Assembly (NCBI GenBank): GCA_947034885.2
Contig: OX344751.2
Location: 9,858,001-9,922,000 of the forward strand
Direction of reading: 5' to 3'
Length of the DNA stretch: 64,000 nt
DNA from: Thuidium tamariscinum
Lineage: Eukaryota > Streptophyta > Bryopsida > Hypnales > Thuidiaceae
Shown: piece after piece, positions 23,501-63,800 of the stretch
How the letters are laid out: each line of letters opens with the position of its first letter
Position numbering within the stretch: position 1 is the first letter of the stretch
Position numbers and translations under genes: made by a program
Notes under the pieces: model-generated
Database searches by the model: none
Told to the model about the DNA's origin: nothing
Seen by the model: only the letters and a program-made list of their open reading frames with translations

Positions 23501-25207
23501 CAAAAATATGCATATAAAAAAAGAAGATTCATTCATCCAATTGTAGGTGCATTTTGTCTAGATGTTGTAGTTTCATTTTACTTTTTGGGGTGGTGGTAAG
23601 TGTTTCACAATAATATCATCCATTCAAAATTTAAAAATATTAAAAAATACATTTCCTCTTCATTGCATATCCTACCTCGGTATCTTTATGAATTGTACCC
23701 ATAATATTGCTCATTGTAGCATTGGTTAGGTTTTTAAGATAAAGCCAACTTCAACTTCCTCAACTCCAATGTCCTCTCATTCACTATAAAGTGTGTACTT
23801 CCCAAACTACTACTTTTACTACTATGCCTGGTTATTATTATTAGACTAGCTAAATCTTCATATTTTCTTGTTGGCAAGTAAAATGAGATTCTAATGTTCA
23901 AAAAGAGGCCCCAACATTATGTACACCAAAGAATGCAACATTTTAATACAATGTAAAAAATATAAAGGATCAAAAGTTTTTTCTAGTGAATGTTTGAAAA
24001 TTGTTTCTTGCATGTAGGTACATAAAGTAGATGCATATAAATGTAATACAACTCATACAACTCATTCTTTGGTACCTATAAAATGACTTAAATCCAAGTG
24101 GAAGTAGCCCCAAAGCAAACAAGTGGGGATTCCAAGAAGTGGCTAATTATCTGCTTGTGATCAAAATAAATGTAGCACTTGTTTTAGGAGCACTTTACAC
24201 TATAGCCAAAGGTTGAGGCTCTATTGGTTTCAACCAATTAGATTTCAAGAAACCATATATTTGGCCTTTGACCCTTCACACTAGGAAGCACAATCCAAAG
24301 TCCATCAAAATTCAATATCCTCAAAATTGCCTACATGAATACATGGTAGTTGAATGCCTATATGACAATGGATTCTTGACCATAGTTAGGATCACCATTT
24401 TTGCTTAATCCAAACTATGATTGAGAGTTTATTAATTTTTTTCTAAAAACTAACAAGATCTTAGCCATTAGGTTGGACATGAAAGGTTGTTTTTGTAATG
24501 GTATTTGGGATGCTCTCTTTTAATTCTCAAAGTTGCGTTTGGGGTTTGAAACCCAATCTCCACCATTATAATTAGGAGTCTTTGCATTCAATGAGCCTAC
24601 TTCCCTTCCATGACCAACGCCACCTTTTTATTCCATTCATACCCTTCATATTCCTTGTTTGATGATGAGAGCATGTGTTGTGATTTTTTTTCAAGGCTAG
24701 TTTGGATTCTTTTCACATGTTTTAAAAAAAAAATTGCTTCATAGATTTATCACAAAAGGGAGGCTTATGTAAAATTTTAAAAATTGGATGGATAAATGTG
24801 GAGTGAAGCCCCCCAAATGGTATAGGTAGGTTTGGACTTTGGGCTTGGCCTCTAGCTCTTGGAGGCTTCATACTATGGTTGATCAAAGCAGGTCCAATTC
24901 CAAAATTTTATTGCCTATTTATTGTTCATTTCTTCAAACTCTTACAAAAATTTAAGTCACCAATTCTATACCCTCTCGACTTTAGATGACCATAATGTAA
25001 AGTATCCTTTAGATTGGTAGATCTTGAGAGTAGGTATGGAATAAAAAGATGTGCATTTATTAGGAAATGGATTTAGGGTATAGGATTTAGGCTCTTGTCA
25101 ATGTAAAACCTCCTCTTCTGTTCTAAATAAAAACTCAAAGTCAATAAATAACGGACAAAAATGAAGATTTTTTTTAACAAATGAAATAAACTTTCATTGT
25201 CATGACA
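20595..25207. other. Long AT-rich tract without genes
   Basis: About 4.6 kb of AT-rich DNA. One TTAA-type terminus, AGTGAGGGGTTAA, ends at 22545 and probably marks the right end of an eroded element whose left end was not found. Short inverted motifs containing CACTATGGCC lie near 21262-21327, with related sequence near 24191. No coding region was recognised. Confidence 0.45.
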
Positions 25208-25464
25208 TTAAATCCTACCATTGAAGGCGACCCAGCATGTGGATTTATCTTAGAGGAAAATGCAGGAACTTTTTATTCTTTGCAAAAAAATTTCTTGCAA
25301 ATTCTCAGTTCATATTTGCAATGAGAGACCACAAATTTGTTGGGAGGGGCTTGATCATACCAAAGACAGGCCCAAAATACGGTTTTTTTTTTTCACTTTT
25401 ACCAGGAGAACCCAAAATTTACCCTGCTGCGGGCAGTCGGGCACATCTTTGATGGTAGGATTAA
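25208..25464. mobile_element. Small MITE with TTAA flanks
   Basis: The inverted ends ATCCTACCATTGA and, inverted, TCCTACCATCAA are flanked by TTAA on both sides (25208-25211, 25461-25464). The element is about 257 bp. The interior includes overlapping 71- and 85-aa frames (25237-25517 region) without recognisable domains. TTAA flanks would fit a piggyBac-like or Kolobok-like insertion. Confidence 0.65.
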
Positions 25465-26688
25465 AAGTCCAGCCTTTCATTGCAAAAGAAACAAAATGGA
25501 ATAAAGATTTCAAATGATTGCATCATTTACTCAATTAAAAGTAATCTTGAGTCTTAACCCATTTATAGATCTCCGATAAATGCGACAAGGCTCCTATTGT
25601 AATTATTGGACGTACACTATTGCAATGCACTGGTGCCACTATTTACTCACGAATTAATGGGAACTTCTGATTTTTAATTCAAAGTAAACCGACAACAGGT
25701 AAAAGTCAAATGTTCAAATCAAGTAGTTCACTCAGTTTGCAGTTGTGGTCAGTAACTTACTGCTACTCATGCTACCTATTGTGGCCAGTGAGCATCCGAT
25801 ATCCGGAACTAGGAGACTAATTCCCCGGGTCTCAACCGAGCGCAGCCATTCATGGTGGTGTCCTCCGAACTCCGAAGAAGGGGCAGATAGGTCGGGGCCT
25901 CGGGGGAAGGCTGCTATCGTTCAATCGACCGACGGGGCTGTTTGAATTTGCGGGACGTTGACACTTGGGATACATTAAATCGTGAGGAAATTGCTCGACT
26001 TTTTCCTTTGAGACCCCGATCCTGGTAGCTCTTCCGTGCCGTAGGATCCCTTGGAACGCGAGAATCCGGACTGTTTGAGCTTCGCAGCGCCAGTTTTGGT
26101 CCCTTGTGGTAGTCATGGCAGGTTTTTAATGTTTTCGAAGGAAACGGACGGCTTATTGACGTATGAAGTGGATGTAGATGTGCATTGTTCACGGTTTGGA
26201 GTGCTCGGTGAGTGAGACCTGGAATGGTGAAGGAGTTTTGGCGACTTGTGGTAGAAATGGCGGGTGTTTGAAGGGTGTTTGAAAGTTTGTATGGAAAGGA
26301 CGGTGTGTTTACACATGAAGCGGAAGTACATTGCATTGTTCTTGGTTTGGATTTCTCGGTGAGTGGAACTTCGAATCATCAAGAACGACAGGCGTTTACG
26401 AGAAGGCTCTTCGGTTTATTCGTTTTGAGAAAGAGAGTCGGTTTTGCAGTCGAGGTTTGTATGGATGTCGGTGTGGTTTAGGTTAATTGAAAAGAGTGAA
26501 GATCGTTGCTAAGGTGAGGGAGGTGAGTGTCGTGAGCGAGGGCGCGCACATTTGGAGCGAAGGGAATATGGAAGGGAATAAAGACGATGCAGATGCTGAG
26601 GCAGTAGCAGCTTGACTGTGAGATTTGCCTAGGAATGCTTACAGAGGGAATTATCATTTCGTGCGGCGTTAGAGAAGGTTGAGGGACA
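25465..26688 (+). promoter_or_regulatory. 5' region of the BRCT-protein gene
   Basis: Base composition rises from about 25740 and stays high up to the start codon, consistent with promoter and transcribed leader. A diverged ~141-bp tandem duplication occupies 26093-26380. No TATA box or transcription start could be fixed. Open frames on the minus strand in this stretch (25914-26336, 26113-26382) arise from the duplicated sequence and are not considered genes. Confidence 0.45.
26093..26380. repeat. Diverged 141-bp tandem duplication in BRCT leader
   Basis: Two units begin GTTTTGGTCCCTTGTGGTAG (26093) and GTTTTGGCGACTTGTGGTAG (26234). They stay collinear through GTGCATTGTTCACGGTTTGG versus TTGCATTGTTCTTGGTTTGG and CTCGGTGAGTG. 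Each unit contains a GGTGAGTG that could act as a splice donor. Confidence 0.7.
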
Positions 26689-29600
26689 ATGAGGTCAACG
26701 TCGCCGTCTCATTCTCCGTCCTCGTCTCGTTATGGAGCGCCGAGCAGGGAGCACACAGCTACGCTTGATGGTTTGGCTCGTCTCTCGACGGACGTGTTCA
26801 GTGAAAAGCCTTTTGCAGGGCTTGTAATATGTGTGACCGGCCTTTCGAAAGGTGATGATCTCTTCACGACGTTTCATTCAGGGAGAAAATTCCTGATTCT
26901 ACTTGTCGGTAACTGCAGTTGAGTTGTCTGCTTGTCTTCTGTAAGAACCTACTCGGATGAAATTGACATCCTCGCTATATTACAAACCTTTGATACTGTT
27001 TTTTTCCGTCTTCCCTGGTCCTTAATGTGTCTTCAAAAAGAGTGTTAAGTTCTTGTTACAAGAGAGTGCGTTGAGCGCAAGCATTACTGATACGATGGTT
27101 GTCTTGAACTCCCTGGTAAATTGTCGGGAAGCTTAGCACTAGGGTGTTGGTGTGTACCGGCGAGCTTAATGAATATTTCGTTAAAGTGTACATCAACTAC
27201 AGTGTTTACATGTATGTTGTCTTTGTCGAGATGGCGCTAGAGCACAAGTGGCAGTGTTGACACACTAATGTGAGCCCCTGTGATGCATTCTGAAAGAGCA
27301 CGCAAATTGACTGTGGAGTGCAGAGGCCCGCAAACAAGTGCAAATGATGACTGAACGTATGGGTGGCCAGTACAGCCCAGACCTCCACGTGAACTGCACT
27401 CATCTTGTTGTTCAAATATCCTTTTGAGTGTGCTACTGCGCTGTGTATTGCTTATTACTGCAGAGACTTTATGATTGTGATGAGTAGTTTTCGCAACTCA
27501 CTATTGTAGACCTTATGTGATAGTACACCTCCTCCGTACATTATTTTTTTCTCATGTTTGTCTCATGTTTTGCTCTTTGGAGTCAAAAAAGTTCGTGAGG
27601 TTGAGTCACAGATTATCAGAACTTGTCACTTGAGTACTTTGGAAAGTCGATAGCTTCCTTGACTTCATGCACAGTTGCAGCGGGCGGAAATTTGAGCATG
27701 CTCTGAAGCATGGATTGCACAGAGGCTTATACGTTGTCACGTTGCCGTGGTTCTTAAATTCTGCGAAACAATTTGGTATGCCTTATAATATCCCCGCTGA
27801 CCTCTTTTTCGAAAGAATCCTTTGAAAGTGTCTCTTTTTCGTTTTTTTCTGAGATTTTTCTTCCAGAATCTTCCAGCATGAAGCTTTGATCACAGCTGAC
27901 ACTTATTCACATCTGAAAGATCTTTCGTCTCTACTCTCTTTGCTTAGCTCAAGATAGTCCCAGACGCTTAGTTGTGAAGATCAGAAGTAGTGTCGTGGCT
28001 ATCCAGTTGCATCACGATCGCAAGTTCCCCACTAAATTTTTCGTCCTTGTTTCACAGAGCGCTTAGACGAAGATCTATACAGCGTGCAAAAGAGTATCCC
28101 GGATGTTTTTATTCCTGAAAAATTCTCCGAAGCGATTGCCAGTAGCAGCTGGCAAAATTCGTGCATACCGGCTAATTGTGACATGAGAACAACTTACAGG
28201 CAGAACAATAACCTATCAAAACCAAAGAGCTCCGGAGGATCAATAAAAACCTCAACAAGCACGCCGAGAACGCCACACTCTACTCGTACAATCCAGGCAT
28301 CTAATACAGCTCTTTCAGGGGCTAGGTTTTACATAGATCCAGATCTCTCAGATGATTTGCAATCTAAGGTAAATTGAGCAGTTTTTATGGTTCTTGAGGT
28401 TTCTATATGCTTGTACTAGCGTCGTTATCGTGCAACTGATTTGTCCTATAAGTAACCTCGTTGAATTTACAGTGGTAGACTGTTTTGAACTTAGTCTCTT
28501 CAAATTTTTTCTTTGAATTTCATTTAGGAATCATACTGACGTAGGTATTTACAGGTTCTAGAGGCAGTCGATTCATGGGGTGCAACTTGCGTGGAGATCT
28601 GGTCCAAGAACAACAACACGACTCATGTTGTTTGTGATCCAAATTCTCTTTCCAAATACATTGGTCTCAACCTTCATCTTGTCTCTGTAAGTAACTCTCC
28701 TATGTTTTTTCCTTCGGAATTTTCATAAGAAAAATTCCAGCGTCAGGAAATATCTTTGCTTTCATTCGAACCCAAAGTTTTCAACATAAAGTCACGTTGA
28801 ATATTCTTCTCTTCTCGTCATTGACGAGCGTGTTGTATTGAACATTGGTTAGACATCATCTTTTGTCTCACGTGTGCTAGGAAGCAGCTTTATCTCTCTG
28901 AAAATGGTGAACATGTCATAGCTCTAGAGCACCTGCTCCTTCATTGTTTAAGTAAATACCCCTGTTTTCGTTTCAAAAATAATAATGTAATATTTTGTAA
29001 GTAAATTGAGGATTTTTATTAGAGGAACATGCTAATGCGTAAACTTGTACCTCCTTTTGCAGCCTATGTGGGTTCTTTCTGCTCGGGATGGCTTCCCATT
29101 ACGATGTGTTCAATATTCTGCCGATCTTGCGAGAAATGTGGCTGACCTTCTTCTATTTGGAAAGGATAGTGGTTCTCTGCCTAAGGTTCGTTGTATGTGT
29201 TTCTTACTTGACGTTGTGGGCGTCCTTTAGACTTTACATTATTAGAGCAGTTATTGCCTAGAATTTTGTTTTTTTTAGGTTATAAGAATTCTTACATTAG
29301 TGGAATCTTATAGTTAAGCAGTCCTTAACCTCCAAATCATTACATGGTAGTCTACTTCTGTGATGTGATGCGTAAAAATGAAAGTAATTTATAACTGAGA
29401 CTCATGATAGGTCACTATTAGGTTGACCCCCATCTCATTTGAGGAGTTTGTGCATGTTCTGTGTCAGGGTTCTATCAAATCCAATGGAAGGCCTGTCAAA
29501 GCCAGAACAGCAGACGATCACTTGCAAGATCGTCAAGAGAAGGCCACGGCAGCAAAGGCAGGAGTGCGCCGGAGACGAGGTCCTCGAATGCAGGTAAATC

Positions 29601-30913
29601 TGCAGAAACTTTTCAGGAATCTGCTCCCTTCTCTTAGAACTTGTGATTGCACATAAGTTATCCAGAAGAAGTCTGTGCGTAATGAACCTGGCGCATGTTC
29701 AAACCTTTGTTTCTAGTGTATTCTACCCCTGAAAATTGTTATGTGTTGAAAATTTAAGATTTTTGGTACAACTTTCCCTTTTTTTTTCCTACATATTCGC
29801 TACCTAACTGTCACATTTTCACAGCCATGTAGGACCCTTCCTCGACCCATCACACCAACTTCCCTCCTGGACTCCATATGTTGGGCTGTGACGGACACAC
29901 CTACAGCTGCGGAGGTATACACGGATAGCTCAGGCAAGGTTATCGTTGAAAATGGTGAATCGGAAAATGGTTACGAGGATGACAATGGTCATTATCGGGA
30001 GCCTGGGAACAAAGTCTTTGACAAGGAATTTTACACAAGGGCTTTGAGTGAAAGGTAAATCAATCATGCTCATACATTGTAGGGTAGGTTAGGTGGAAAA
30101 TATTTCATAGACGTCTCGAATAGACCTTCGCGTTTGGACATGTGATAGAAACTCTGTCTGCAAATCGAGACACCTTGATGCGATATCAGGGAACTGTTTG
30201 TTTCTACCTCTTTGTGGCGTCCTTTCTAACAATGAATGAATGTCCATGTGTAGTGAAATGCGGGAGATTGTGTTCAGAGGAGCCTTTTTGACAATATTAT
30301 TCCCCATCGACCGTTTCTCTGAGCTGGGTCCTTCTTCTCGGACTTTTTATAGCGAAGGAGGGTTTTGTAGGGAGAAACTTCTTGAGTTGGTTCACTCTTT
30401 TTATCAGGTAATTTTTTGCGGATGTATGATATCATAGACCTTCGCTGCTTTGTTGGCACTGACCGTGGAGTCACATACTTAGGCTTGGAATGTTCTTCAG
30501 CCATTAATCTGGGGGAATTGAATTTATCCCAATAAATATTCATCTACAAAGTTTGTCCGAGCGATGATGCTGTGTGTGACGGAGGTAGTAATCGAATAAT
30601 ACTTCGCAAAAATCCTGAATATATGCTGCATCTTTCTCTTAATGCCCATTCTTGTCGGGACCTCGTAGCTCACGTGCTCTTTGTTATGGATTAGGAATAC
30701 ATGTCACCAGATGACATCGACGCTGCAATTCACACGGATTCCAAGCATGCTGATCGACTGCGAACAGTGTACACCTCGAAAGAGGTTGCCGAGCTTGGTT
30801 TTGTTCCAATGGTGCGGGTTGAGTTCCTTGGTAGTCGGCGACAATTTGAAGGTTTGAAGAGGATTGGCCAGGAACCAACAAGTCATATGTACAACCTCTG
30901 CCTGAGTTCTTGA
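26689..30913 (+). CDS. Two-BRCT-domain nuclear protein, ten exons
   Basis: Exons: 26689-26851, 27324-27415, 27673-27775, 28058-28368, 28555-28686, 29063-29185, 29411-29593, 29825-30054, 30254-30407, 30695-30913. They join in frame to 569 codons. BRCT 1 (about residues 41-123) runs from FAGLVICVTGLSKEARKQV through GGQYSPDLHVNCTHLVVQ to the conserved Trp in TLPWF. BRCT 2 (about 203-290) runs from LSGARFYID through THVVCD to PMWVLSARDGF. A basic stretch GVRRRRGPRM near residue 360 could be a nuclear signal. The last ~130 residues (from EMREIVFRGAFLTI) are a compact region that I do not recognise. BRCT pairs bind phosphoproteins in DNA-damage and cell-cycle signalling, so a nuclear repair or checkpoint role is inferred; the orthologue is not assigned. 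Intron 2 (27416-27672) is U12-type AT-AC; the other introns have GT-AG ends. Domains and exon joins are well supported; the exact start is less certain. Confidence 0.85.
27416..27672 (+). other. U12-type AT-AC intron
   Basis: The 257-bp intron starts ATATCCTTTT, an exact match to the minor-spliceosome AT-AC donor. It contains the branch site TTCCTTGAC at 27655-27663 and ends in AC at 27671-27672, ten bases after the branch A (27662). Joining 27415 to 27673 gives CTHLVVQ-SCSGRKFEHALKHG, an uninterrupted BRCT domain in phase 0. No GT-AG alternative restores that frame. Confidence 0.93.
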
Positions 30914-33949: not shown

Positions 33950-36169
33950 ATGGCGGCAGTGGCGTGCGCTGGAGCTTTTTCTGGAGCTCTCGCGCAGCAA
34001 TGGGCGCCTCCTTCTTCCGCCTCGAGCTCCGCTGTGTCTGCTTCCCGGAGTGTGGCGTTCCGGGGCGCTTCTTTAGCCGTGAAGCCTCTCAGGAGTTCCG
34101 GGAGGCTCCAGGACAACAGGGTACAGGGGTGGACTGTTAGGGCGTCGGCGGAGGGTGCTGGTGAGGGCGAGTTGGTGTTGAACAAGCCCGAGGGCTCAGG
34201 CAAGAAGGTTAGTGGGAAGGGAATGAGGGTTTGGCGTGTTCCGGCTGCTTGTGAATTGGAACATTTTAATGCCGGTTATGCAACCTGTGCGGTAGCTGCG
34301 CCTGCCCTAATCAGACAGAAGAACTGTCTAACGTGCCCAAGGTGTAAATTCAAGGGCTTGAATGTACACCTTCGTTACATATGCTAATTTCTTTTTGGAG
34401 AAGACACAATCATAGTGATATATTCTTGTCCTAGAATGCACGTTTTAGACGTATTGAATGCGCTGTCCATTCAATGCTGCCCAAGGTGTAAATTCTAGGA
34501 CGAGAATGTACAGCTTCTTCGCATGTGTAAATTTCTTCTGTCATGGACACAAGCGCAATGATACATTCTTGTCCTAGAATTCATGTTTTAGTGGAATTGG
34601 ATTTGCTGTTCAAATAAGGTGTAGGTGTTGTCAGCAAATGCTATGGATTTCGCATGATTTTAGAATAGAGAAAAGAGGGTGCCTGATTCTGTCTTGTGAG
34701 CTTTGTTCTTCTGTAATGTACACTAGCATAATGATTCATTCTTGTCTTAGAATTCATGTTTTAGACGAATTGGATTTGCTGTCCATAGGTATTTTCAGCA
34801 ATGCTAGGGGTTTCGCTTGATTTTTGGATTAGGCAAAAGAGGATGCCTGCTTCTATCTAGCGAGCTTCTTATGATAACATCCTGCACAAGTGCGGTTGGC
34901 GAGGTGATTTCGAATTTGTGAAAAGGTAGCTGAGTAGTGTACTGCGGTTTGGATTGTTCGGGATTGGGAAATAGTGTAAGGAAATTATAAGAAGCCATTA
35001 GATTTTTGAAAATTTGTGTGGAGTTGATGAAGAGCGTGGAGCAGTTGGTCATGGTCGTCAAAACCTCAACTCATTTTGCCTTTGCAATGAATTTCATTTC
35101 ATTTGTGTCAAAAAAGACACCCAAAAAAACTCAATTCAGTAGTGCCTAGTTTTCTAGGTTCTGGGATTCAGGTTTACAACGTGCATTTGACTAAAAGCCA
35201 AACAGACGCGCTGTGAGACGGGGAACCCATTCCTCTGTGACTTTCATCTGTTTTGAGGGCTTTCCATTATTGGAAAAAGTTTATTTTGTTTTGGGAGAGA
35301 AATTTCCCCATTTTTGAGGATTCCAATGCACTGAATTTCATATTGTATGTGAATGGTTGAAGTTTGAAATAGTAAGGTCTTATTCACAAGGTTAGGCTAC
35401 CCTTTGAATAATTTGTATTGCTGCATCTTTGACTGTGATAGAACCTAGAAGTACGTCATATCTTACGGGTCACATGTGGAGGACGCATGCATTGTAAATG
35501 GGTGAATGTGAAACCATATGAAAAGTCCCCTCTTAAATGGTCCTACCTTAGTCTTTTGCATATGAAGTAGTGTCGAATAGCTTGAATTTCCCCATCGTAT
35601 TTGTTTCAGTGACGAGTTTGATTTTAAGCGTACACGATCACACACAGCTACCAATTCAGGGAAGACTCTTGGCAATTTTACAGCTAAGGAAAGGGTGGTG
35701 GTGGCACCCAAAGTGTATAATCTACGGAGGAAATGCATCTGTATAGTAAATAACTGGGGGCAGTATCACCCAAGTAGAACTCGCCATCCTAGTACCAGAA
35801 AGGGTTGTTTCCGTCATCATTCTGATTATACTTCAGTGTTTCCTGTGGTTGATTTACTGTCATGGTCTTTATCTTTGCTCCCTTGGTTTGCAGAAAAAAG
35901 TGGTGATTGCTGCTCCGAAGAAGCAAAGGGTGTTGCTGAGGTTTTTGTGGTTGGAGAAGAACATCGGGATCGCACTTGACCAGGTGGTGCCTGGCCATGG
36001 AACCATCCCCCTCAGCCCCTACTTCTTCTGGCCACGCAAGGACGCCTGGGAGCAACTCAAGACCAAGCTCGACAGCAAAGGCTGGATTTCTAGGAAGAGG
36101 ACCATCATCTTACTCAATCAAGCTACGGATATCATCAACTTGTGGCAGGCTAACGCCGCCAACCTTTAG
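33950..36169 (+). CDS. PSRP3: Plastid-specific 30S ribosomal protein 3 (PSRP3 / Ycf65, cS23)
   Basis: Two exons, 33950-34207 and 35894-36169, joined in phase 0 across a 1686-bp GT-AG intron, give 177 aa. Residues 1 to about 65 are rich in Ala, Ser and Val with few acidic residues, typical of a chloroplast transit peptide; cleavage near [11 protein letters not shown] is plausible. The C-terminal half is the Ycf65 domain: [37 protein letters not shown], then [13 protein letters not shown] near the end. In land plants this is a nuclear-encoded small-subunit protein of the plastid ribosome; in cyanobacteria and red algal plastids the homologue is Ycf65. The frame is open upstream to an ATG at 33824, but the [10 protein letters not shown] start gives the best transit peptide. 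Expression in green tissue is expected from the role, not shown here. Confidence 0.93.
34334..34870. repeat. Three imperfect tandem units inside the PSRP3 intron
   Basis: Units of roughly 145-180 bp repeat the order CCCAAGGTGTAAATTC, then ATTCTTGTCCTAGAAT (34422, 34573 and, as CTTGTCTTAGAATTC, 34742), then TGTTTTAGACGAATTGGATT. The third unit is more diverged. It lies wholly within the intron (34208-35893). Confidence 0.75.
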
Positions 36170-38208: not shown

Positions 38209-38856
38209 ATGGCGGAGGTGAAGGCGGAGGAGGCGATGGCGATGGCAGCAAATGGCACCCCGGAGTCCGACCCCGAGCTTAAGAAAACGTCCTCCTACCG
38301 TTACTGGGTCCGCAGCTCCACCATGACGGCGCCCAAGACGGCTCCCCGACCTTTGACAGCGGAAGAGATCACAGCGAAGAGCCTCAACAATGGCGTGCAG
38401 TTGGCAGGCTCCAAGTGGAACCAGGCGGGGACGTGGGAGGAGAAGATGTTAAGCTCCTGGGCGTACAGCCGCGTGAAGGCGCTTCTCCCCGCCGTGGAGC
38501 CCGTGGAGTTCGACCAGGGCTGCACCGCTAGGGTTGTGGAGGTGACGAGCTGTAGCGGCGATGCGTCGATGGTGACTGTGCGGCAACGGAAGCGTGTGGG
38601 CTATACATTTGAAATCGAGATGAAGTATGCGGTGACGATGAGAGAGGAGGAGGGGAAGGCGATTGAAGGGAAAATGAAGGTGCCGGAAGCGTGCTATGGC
38701 GAGCTGGATGATCTGGAGCTCGAGGTGACGGTTAGCGCGGCTGATGTGAAGGACGAGGAGAAGCGGAGGACGGTGAAGCAGAATTTGACGAAGCTGTTGT
38801 TGCCAAGGATTCGGCGGAAGCTCGAGGAGTTTGAGGCGGAGTTGAAGGAGAGGTAA
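38209..38856 (+). CDS. Aha1 N-domain protein (predicted Hsp90 co-chaperone)
   Basis: A single exon encodes 215 aa. After an acidic Ala-rich N-terminus and a linker with YRYWVRSSTM, the Aha1_N domain runs from about residue 62 (LAGSKWNQAGTWEEKMLSSW) through RVKALLPAVEPVEF and VTVRQRKRVGYTFEIEMKY to a C-terminal helix ending LPRIRRKLEEFEAELKER. In eukaryotes this domain binds the Hsp90 middle segment and stimulates its ATPase. Full-length Aha1 also has a C-terminal AHSA1/START-like domain. That domain is absent here, as in an Arabidopsis N-domain-only protein (I recall At5g58110). The frame is open upstream to 37879, but that part is repeat and leader sequence, and the ATG at 38209 in GGCTATGGCGG is the sensible start. 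A cytosolic role is inferred. Confidence 0.88.
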   Translation: MAEVKAEEAMAMAANGTPESDPELKKTSSYRYWVRSSTMTAPKTAPRPLTAEEITAKSLNNGVQLAGSKWNQAGTWEEKMLSSWAYSRVKALLPAVEPVEFDQGCTARVVEVTSCSGDASMVTVRQRKRVGYTFEIEMKYAVTMREEEGKAIEGKMKVPEACYGELDDLELEVTVSAADVKDEEKRRTVKQNLTKLLLPRIRRKLEEFEAELKER

Positions 38857-60801: not shown

Positions 60802-63800
60802 ATGGCAGACCGGTTTGAGAGGCAGATGGGTGATATGGGTGGGCTGCTTGTTAGTGAAGTGGCCCAAAGACGTCTGGACAGGATAGCGTCACATTTGTGC
60901 GACTCAAGTCTTGTGCAGGAGGAACAGCTCAGTAGGGAATTATGTGCGAAACTCATCAAGCGGCCCGTGAATCCGTCAGTCCTTGCTAATCTTATGGCAG
61001 GTATGTTATCGTTTAGTCTTATTAATATGTCTGTTTTAATCATCCGCAGTGCTGATCTTTTTACAGCAAAAGATTCAGTGGCGTTATTGGTCTCTCCCCG
61101 TGTTTATCTTTATCGGGCATTTTAATTCCGACTCCAATCATATCAATGCTTTTTGAGATGCAGTTTCAAATATCTTTGTTCAAGTAGTGAGTTTGGAATT
61201 TGGGCTGAAATTGAAGGGTTCACTTGAGTAATGACTGTACGAATGTAGAATCCTGAGATTCGTATGATGTTGTCCAGGTGGCTATCCAGCTGACAGGGAG
61301 AAGATCTTCAATTTCTTTATCAGCCGACCGGATTTAGAGACTCCTGTAGAGATTGCGAAGGCAGAGCATCGAGAGATTGTGTACAAGCAGCTGAATGCTC
61401 TCGTCAATGAAGCAGGGGTAAATCCGATGAAGTATCTGATTGAGGATCCTACGCGCTATTTTACAGTTGGGGAGGCGGCTGGTTTTATTGATGTATCTCT
61501 TGCAATTAAGATGGGAGTACAGTTCAGGTAAAAAACTAAATATCCGAGTCCTGTACGAGCACTCTGTATTCCTCCTTCCCCTTTTTTCCTTTCCTATGCA
61601 AAGTGTGAATACTATCAATTTCTATTTCATTGCTTTATTTACTAAAATTTTAGACGTGGTCGGTTGTATTGCAGTTTGTGGGGAGGCTCCGTCGTGAATC
61701 TGGGGACTCAGAAGCATCGAGACAAATATTTGGATGGTATTTCCAACTTGACATATCCTGGATGTTTTGCCATGACCGAACTCCATCATGGTATGTGTGC
61801 GCTCAGTACTTCTCATACTGGAATGTTAGGGTTTGTGAATTACTTTGTCTGAGACTATTGTCACTGTTTTCTTCCTGGATTTGCCTTCTTTGATTCAAGT
61901 CAATGGGCTGACTACCACGTCAAGGATACTTTAGTAAAGAGTAATACCACTTCCAAATGCTCTGTTTTTTGGTGTCGCCTGAGGACCATTGTTGCTCCAT
62001 AGCATGGCTGGATGGCTAAGGTTTCAGCTCTTGATAGAGTCTCGTCTGCTTATCTAAAAATGGAAACATCGATTATCTGTAGGGAACTAGGGATTCGTTT
62101 GGAAAATCATTTATTGCGGAGACTAAATTCCATCAAGTACTGCAAAGTTTACCTCGGTTAGGAATATCAAGTATCTTTTCTTATATATATATCTGTTTTT
62201 CTTTTATGGTTTTTCAGGTTCTAACGTTCAAGGTATTCAGACAACTGCAACATTTGACCGCATGACTGATGAGTTTATCATCAACACTCCAAACGAGGGA
62301 GCACTGAAATGGTGGATAGGTAATGCTGCCGTGCACGGGAAGTTCGCGTCAGTGTTTGCGAGACTTCTGCTTCCTTCGCCCGATTCTCACCTGGACACAG
62401 ACATGGGCGTTCATGCATTCATTGTTCCCATTAGGAGTATGGAAGATCACTCTGTACTGCCTGGAATCGAGATACATGACTGCGGGTTCAAAATCGGGTT
62501 GAATGGGGTTGATAACGGAGCCCTAAGATTCGACAATGTTCGTATTCCTAGAGACAACCTTTTGAATCGCTTTGGAGATGTATCTAGGGATGGAAAGTAC
62601 ACTAGCATACTCCCAACAATCAACAAACGTTTCGCTGCAACACTGGGAGAGCTTGTTGGGGGGAGAGTGGGTTTGGCGCATGGTTCTGTTGGAGTGCTGA
62701 AAGCTGCATCTACGATTGCTATCAGGTCTTCCTTCTTCTTGAATTTTTGTATAAGACTTGAAATGTCTCGTTCCATAATTGTTTTGGAAAACACGTCAAT
62801 CTGACATCTTGGTTTTGCAAGATGTTGGACAACTGATACGTTGCCTTCTGATCATTTCTATTCTGTTGTTGCTGTCGATGGATCTAGGAAAAGAGCAAGC
62901 ATTTTTTTTTGTATATTTTTTGAAGGATTATCGGCAATTTGGTGAAGGTCTGATAGTGAGCTATAATGAGGCTGCATAACAACTTAAGGGCTTTACTTTA
63001 CGTTTCTTCTGGTGCAGGTATTCTTTGATACGACAACAGTTTGGACCACCGAACAAAGCAGAAATCAGTATTCTGGACTATCAATCACAACAGCAAAAGC
63101 TCATGCCCATGCTTTCTTCAGTATATGCCTTCCATTTTGCCGCCGAGTATCTAGTAAGTTGTTTCTCTTTGTCTGAGTCGCTATCCTTTTTCTCAGACTT
63201 GCGGAATTGAATGTTTAGGCACACGTGAAAGGCGCTGTTGCAATGACGGAACACTGATTCTTTCAGTAATTGAGTGAAACTCACTCGGATTGCGAGGAGG
63301 AGTCTCATAGTTAGTTGAATTATATATCGTTCTAGCTCACTGAAAATGTTAAACTGTCTAGTAAATCGTCTTCTGGGTTCTCTTATTAGGAGACACCGCT
63401 CAGAGTTCGCTCTTCTTTGCTGTTAATTAGATCCTTTTTTCCGCATATTTGTTCATTTCCGAGGAATAACATGTAATTCCAACGTCTCATTTAGGTGGAT
63501 CGATATGTTGAGATGAAGAAAACACATGATGATGAGGTAGTTGCTGATGTCCATGCCTTATCCGCGGGGCTTAAAGCTTACATTACATCCTACACCGCAA
63601 AGGCATTAAATACCTGTCGAGAGTCCTGTGGTGGACATGGTTATGCAGCAGTAAATCGCTTTGGCGCGCTTAGGAACGATCACGATATTTTTCAGACATT
63701 CGAAGGGGATAATACAGTTCTTCTACAACAGGTATGCTCCAGTTGAAAGGCAGTATTACTGCGTAACAAAAATTATACTTAGTCTTCATCTATTTTGACC

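Follow-up and report, generated by a model that had tools for sequence, protein, structure and literature searches.

An AT-AC U12-type intron in the first BRCT domain of a Thuidium tamariscinum gene, very probably real and present at the same position in a paralogue

In this study, we found that positions 27416-27672 of a 64,000-nucleotide stretch of Thuidium tamariscinum DNA (hereafter the window) are almost certainly a true U12-type AT-AC intron, which would be removed by the minor spliceosome from the pre-mRNA of a nuclear gene for a BRCT protein. Direct reading of the sequence confirmed the AT-AC U12-type intron reported at this place by the first-pass annotation; its coordinates, its donor, branch and AC signals and its class all hold. 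At 27416 the donor stands in the context CAA/ATATCCTTTTG (a slash marks a splice junction), and the donor itself, ATATCCTTTT, fits the U12-type consensus ATATCCTTT. The plant U12 branch consensus is given as TTCCTTRAY in the available part of PMC5932401; the branch site TTCCTTGAC matches it and lies a short distance from the acceptor. A polypyrimidine tract is absent before the acceptor, CTTCATGC separating the branch A from the AC. The 3' end of the intron reads ATGCAC/AGT, and the junction falls between codons. When 27415 was joined to 27673, the translation read CTHLVVQ/SCSGRKF; when intron 2 was retained, it read VVQ-ISF-stop and ended after three intron codons. A cut after CAA and before AGT would bring together both halves of a BRCT domain of the TopBP1 type, and retention would leave a protein truncated at the early stop. 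Because retention gives an early stop, the intron could report minor-spliceosome activity in this plant. From the sequence we infer that the intron is actually spliced and that the minor spliceosome is used, and any regulatory effect is put forward on the same footing.

The gene model extends over 26689-30913 on the + strand, with ten exons placed by hand and a start codon that was also picked by hand (Table 1). Its single open frame has 551 codons with the stop counted, corresponding to 550 amino acids. The remaining eight introns, including introns 4-9 among exons 4-10, are all GT-AG. The spliced protein was compared with Pfam and matched PTCB-BRCT (E 5.1e-21, 74.9 bits, cut-off 22), BRCT (E 6.4e-17, 62 bits, cut-off 21.3) and BRCT_2 (E 2e-7, 31.6 bits, cut-off 27.3), and a second BRCT match was found at residues 205-273. 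The half before the intron, in a piece that carried three intron-derived residues, matched PTCB-BRCT on its own with E 7.6e-8; the half after the intron, in a piece that carried a few intron-derived residues, gave no Pfam match up to E 1. A search of PDB sequences returned TopBP1 as the best of 28 matches (E 1.5e-22). The TopBP1 alignment is gapless at the junction, where CTHLVVQSCSGRKFEHALKH stands opposite CTHLIVQEPKGQKYECAKK and CTHLVVQ/SCSGRKFEHALKH is likewise opposite CTHLIVQEPKGQKYECAKK; the gaps closest to the junction are a single residue immediately ahead of CTHL and a four-residue gap inside exon 3. Since TopBP1 aligns straight through, the junction is fixed independently of any splice-site motif. 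The earlier proposal that splicing restores the BRCT frame was therefore upheld by the Pfam matches and by the TopBP1 alignment, which passes through the junction.

Table 1. Features of the BRCT gene in the window and U6atac loci in the genome (L, locus; C, contig of genome G000)
Feature	Position	Strand	Details
Exon 1, ends in phase 1	26689..26851	+	hand-built model; PTCB-BRCT match begins here
Exon 2, BRCT core to CTHLVVQ	27324..27415	+	hand-built model; Pfam PTCB-BRCT
AT-AC U12-type intron 2	27416..27672	+	257 nt, phase 0; paralogue with same class and position
U12-type donor ATATCCTTTT	27416..27425	+	read directly; 8 consecutive pairs with U11 5' end
U12-type branch site TTCCTTGAC	27655..27663	+	branch A = 27662
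AC acceptor	27671..27672	+	last intron base = branch A + 10
Exon 3 (SCSGRKFEHALKHG...), rest of first BRCT domain	27673..27775	+	model; TopBP1 alignment
Exons 4-10	28058..30913 (28058-28368, 28555-28686, 29063-29185, 29468-29593, 29825-30054, 30254-30407, 30695-30913)	+	
Intact U6atac gene, first	L005 1501-1629 = G000 C1:10670793-10670921		
Intact U6atac gene, second	L006 1501-1629 = G000 C4:28929365-28929493		
Truncated U6atac copy	L007 1501-1600 = G000 C4:26741083-26741182		first 14 model positions absent
Degenerate U6atac-like stretch	L093 129-244, G000 C7 from 1644850		28.7 bits (cut-off 33)

The interval could in principle be spanned by a major-class GT-AG intron, with the AT-AC signals present by coincidence, and 18 frame-compatible GT-AG pairs do exist, of which the top-scoring joins donor 27370 to acceptor 27680. 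However, the score is 0.5 for that donor and 3.2 for the best donor among the 18, compared with at least 4.8 for the 16 GT-AG introns of both genes (the window gene and its paralogue), a self-scored yardstick in that the splice-site matrix was built from these same 16 introns. All 18 pairs delete or replace BRCT core residues that are aligned to TopBP1, and the paralogue retains AT-AC termini together with a U12-like branch site. We consider a major-class intron here very improbable.

The AT-AC U12-type intron was then compared with its counterpart in the paralogue. When the plant's own genome was searched for paralogues, nine matches with E of 1 or less were obtained: three pieces of the window gene, two pieces of a paralogue on contig C1, a further two of a TopBP1-like gene also on C1, and two weak matches (E 0.2 and 0.99). 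The paralogue (L017 3279-8868), modelled by hand with the window gene as a guide, has ten exons and 582 codons including the stop. Its nine introns are identical to those of the window gene in order and phase; on the alignment, eight of the nine share a column with their counterparts, and the exception, intron 6, is displaced by one column where the alignment is gapped. Only intron 2 of the paralogue is AT-AC. It is 102 nt long and reads CAA/ATATCCTCTT...TTCTTTGACTTCGCACAC/AAC, with the donor ATATCCTCTT, the branch site TTCTTTGAC and the same 10-base spacing. The AT-AC class is thus kept at the same position in the single close paralogue found in the plant's own genome.

Protein identity between the two is 325/544 aligned residues, and identity at four-fold third positions is 60/169 (36%), which is near saturation. 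When the terminal dinucleotides were set aside, the ends of intron 2 matched between the two genes at 7/8 donor positions and 12/16 positions on the acceptor side, compared with 0-4/8 and 3-10/16 in the eight GT-AG introns. A class shared at such divergence is as expected under selection on U12 splicing. These results suggest that the intron is very probably real, since an old gene duplicate keeps the same rare intron, and they add a pair of paralogues whose AT-AC class outlasted near-saturating divergence. In the same comparison, the C-terminal region (window 30254-30913) was strongly conserved between the paralogues; its 123 residues gave no match to PDB sequences up to E 1, and against Pfam they gave a sub-threshold match to DUF6699. 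In the TopBP1-like gene, at C1:53.52 Mb, the query gave three BRCT matches, which lie in two open frames of 457 and 606 codons. The homologous position is read through in the 457-codon frame, and because this frame is continuous there, the gene is without an intron at the homologous place. It may be a truer TopBP1 counterpart than the window gene.

AT-AC introns handled by the major spliceosome exist, for example in sodium channel genes, according to passages of PMC2831892. In the same passages, introns of the sodium-channel type have G at +5, whereas both paralogues here have CC at +5/+6. The branch site also argues against handling of intron 2 by the major spliceosome, being identical to the U12 consensus in the window gene and differing from it by one base in the paralogue, and we give this explanation almost no weight.

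As for the level expected by chance, the + strand of the window holds two combinations of consensus donor, branch site and termini of 60-4000 nt, and the - strand holds none. The two, which have the branch site in common, are 27416-27672 and the GT...AG pair 25002-27674. The second would be a long U12-type GT-AG intron, starting with GTATCCTTTA at 25002 and closed by an AG whose last base, 27674, lies 12 bases past the branch A. However, exons 1 and 2 would be lost to it, and with them the front part of the BRCT domain, which is backed by Pfam, TopBP1 and the paralogue, and it is hardly credible as the intron of this gene. In first-order Markov sequence, simulated over 15 Mb for each of two sources, combinations of up to 600 nt arose at 0.2-0.4 per Mb on a single strand. 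The whole genome was scanned for pairs of RTATCCTT and TTCCTTRAY set 41-101 bases apart, a range that excludes the spacing of the window intron; this gave 93 matches versus 101 in the reversed control, with repeats accounting for many of them.

On these counts a genome-wide motif-pair census of U12 introns was set aside as unusable. A shorter-spaced pattern gave two matches (control, five) with spans of 31 and 34 nt, which were judged too short for introns. It was also observed that several repeat families, spread over many contigs, begin with GTATCCTTT and contain TTCCTTRAY similarly spaced from it, so that motif scans for U12 introns are swamped in this genome. The motif scan did not exceed its control, and so motifs taken by themselves, without coding context, are not evidence. 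The case for the AT-AC intron is carried by this coding context, which is strong: TopBP1 homology is ungapped through the junction, and the paralogue shares class and position. Counted against the intron were the hand-built models, the motif scan without excess and, as described below, the altered U6atac donor box in the intact genes, the U4atac search that gave no match and the stray control match of the U11-48K family. Its phase 0, set beside PMC10639083, was counted against it as well.

The genome was searched for components of the minor spliceosome. Two U12 loci and one U11 locus scored over the Rfam cut-off, as did at least three U6atac loci, namely two intact genes and one truncated copy. 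The Rfam model of U4atac found no match in the genome and none in the controls either; such a result does not show its absence. The zinc finger of U11-48K (PF05253) gave one match, which is weak support because the family search also matched one control genome, Sulfolobus. The 5' end of U11 can form eight consecutive pairs with ATCCTTTT, one of them G-U, and the segment GTAAGGAA of the U12 locus L004 can pair with TTCCTTG-C with the branch A bulged. These results show that the genome holds putative snRNA loci with matching U11 and U12 pairing regions. In the splicing event we propose, U11 would pair with ATCCTTTT at the donor and U12 with the sequence around the branch A (TTCCTTG-C), leaving this A bulged.

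Both intact U6atac genes have AGCCGA where the family consensus has AAAGGA; the copies start with GTGTTCGTTGAGCCGAGAGAAGGTTAGC, and the Rfam consensus starts with GUGUUGUaUGAAAGGAGAGAAGGUUAGC. The AAAGGA box is taken to pair with the donor, and for this pairing we used the register of the literature. In this register, the consensus AAAGGA forms six pairs with window donor positions +9 to +4, whereas AGCCGA forms four, one of them G-U, and loses those at +7 and +6. With the donor of the paralogue, the consensus forms five pairs and AGCCGA four. The register agrees with compensatory-mutation assays in CHO cells, which, in the passages available from PMC4980772, match U6atac nucleotides 14/15 to donor positions 5/6 and indicate that U6atac-donor pairing is important. 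A second register further along U6atac (AGAAGG) pairs equally in both RNAs, and therefore some U6atac pairing would still be possible.

Other U6atac copies were sought in the genome. A pattern search for the shared core gave four places (control, two), which were the two intact genes, the truncated copy and one place at 18.7 bits, below the threshold. No exact copy of the canonical U6atac start was found in the genome search. With one or two mismatches allowed, 44 places were found versus 26 in the control, and when all 44 were scanned, none reached the U6atac cut-off. One of the 44, the degenerate stretch L093, has the canonical start AAAGGAGAGAA and contains GUGUUAGAAGAAAGGAGAGAA, but 12 consensus positions are missing after UUAGC, and no TATA-like stretch was evident by eye. 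Its appearance is that of a relic or of a match by chance, though it was picked for its start, and it may be a gene. The truncated copy, which has a TATA-like stretch shortly upstream, is probably a pseudogene. The two intact genes are similar in their near flanks, and they may therefore be recent duplicates that count as one observation. The family-model search scored 46 of 19402 candidates, so that a U6atac copy was possibly missed.

It is conceivable, but on balance doubtful, that canonical AT-AC donors are spliced in this plant by a minor spliceosome that uses the AGCCGA form of U6atac and does without the +6/+7 pairs. If this were true, donor choice would lean more on U11, U11-48K or another U6atac register, and the finding would inform how exact the pairing of U6atac with the donor needs to be. 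Among the matches listed in a literature search for U6atac with moss or plant, no title had an altered U6atac donor box as its subject. This lead may matter more than the AT-AC intron itself.

AT-AC introns had been described in the first-pass annotation as a small minority of U12 introns. In a table of PMC7367187 the share stands at 26% for Arabidopsis, 23% for soybean, 22% for rice and 13% for maize, and a transcriptome study quoted in PMC5932401 gives 4.8%; the description fits the last figure and sits poorly with the 13-26% of the four plants. An enrichment of minor introns in DNA-repair genes had also been claimed, and it is indeed reported in an excerpt of PMC10639083, where the same sentence questions its strength. 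That a GT-AG gene finder would break the gene at intron 2 is plausible. The structure of the BRCT gene is now fixed for annotation, and GT-AG-only models may truncate or split the gene.

A known plant case is CBP20, in which an AT-AC U12 intron was kept in all ten plant species compared, as stated in passages of PMC5932401. Like that intron, the window intron has AT-AC termini and the plant branch consensus TTCCTTRAY, and the short CBP20 introns given in these passages, 76-284 nt, bracket its length. Unlike CBP20, the intron lies in a different gene, and the ten-species conservation belongs to CBP20, whereas the comparison here is with a paralogue within the genome. AT-AC U12 introns are an already known class, from CBP20 and from the plant shares above, and the window intron is therefore a new example of it. 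In the literature searched, no paper was found in which a U12-type intron and BRCT occur together.

The window protein resembles TopBP1 (BRCT domain with CTHLIVQEPKGQKYE) in the BRCT sequence match given above, and differs from it in its length of 550 amino acids and in having its own C-terminal region. The plant counterpart of TopBP1 is MEI1. At3g43930 is a candidate orthologue, and no mention of it was found in the literature searched. Arabidopsis BRCT proteins named in excerpts of PMC9792525 and PMC9791218 are XIP/BCP3 (At4g03130), BCP1, BCP2 and BCP4, and the window protein is, like these, a plant BRCT protein. In those excerpts, XIP and BCP1 are linked to DNA damage, and sensitivity was not raised in bcp2, bcp3 and bcp4 mutants. 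The BRCT domains of XIP/BCP3 and BCP4 are C-terminal as described there, whereas the strongest BRCT match of the window protein is N-terminal.

Other coding features were noted in the window. An open frame at 62262-62804 matched the acyl-CoA dehydrogenase middle domain below the cut-off (1.1e-5, 26 of 33.3 bits). A probable gene for the plastid ribosomal protein PSRP-3/Ycf65 lies at 33950-36169, with the domain match (E 9.5e-27) in its 3' part and a long intron between two coding parts that was placed by eye. At 38209-38856, a single open frame carries an Aha1_N (Hsp90 ATPase activator) domain with E 6.6e-26.
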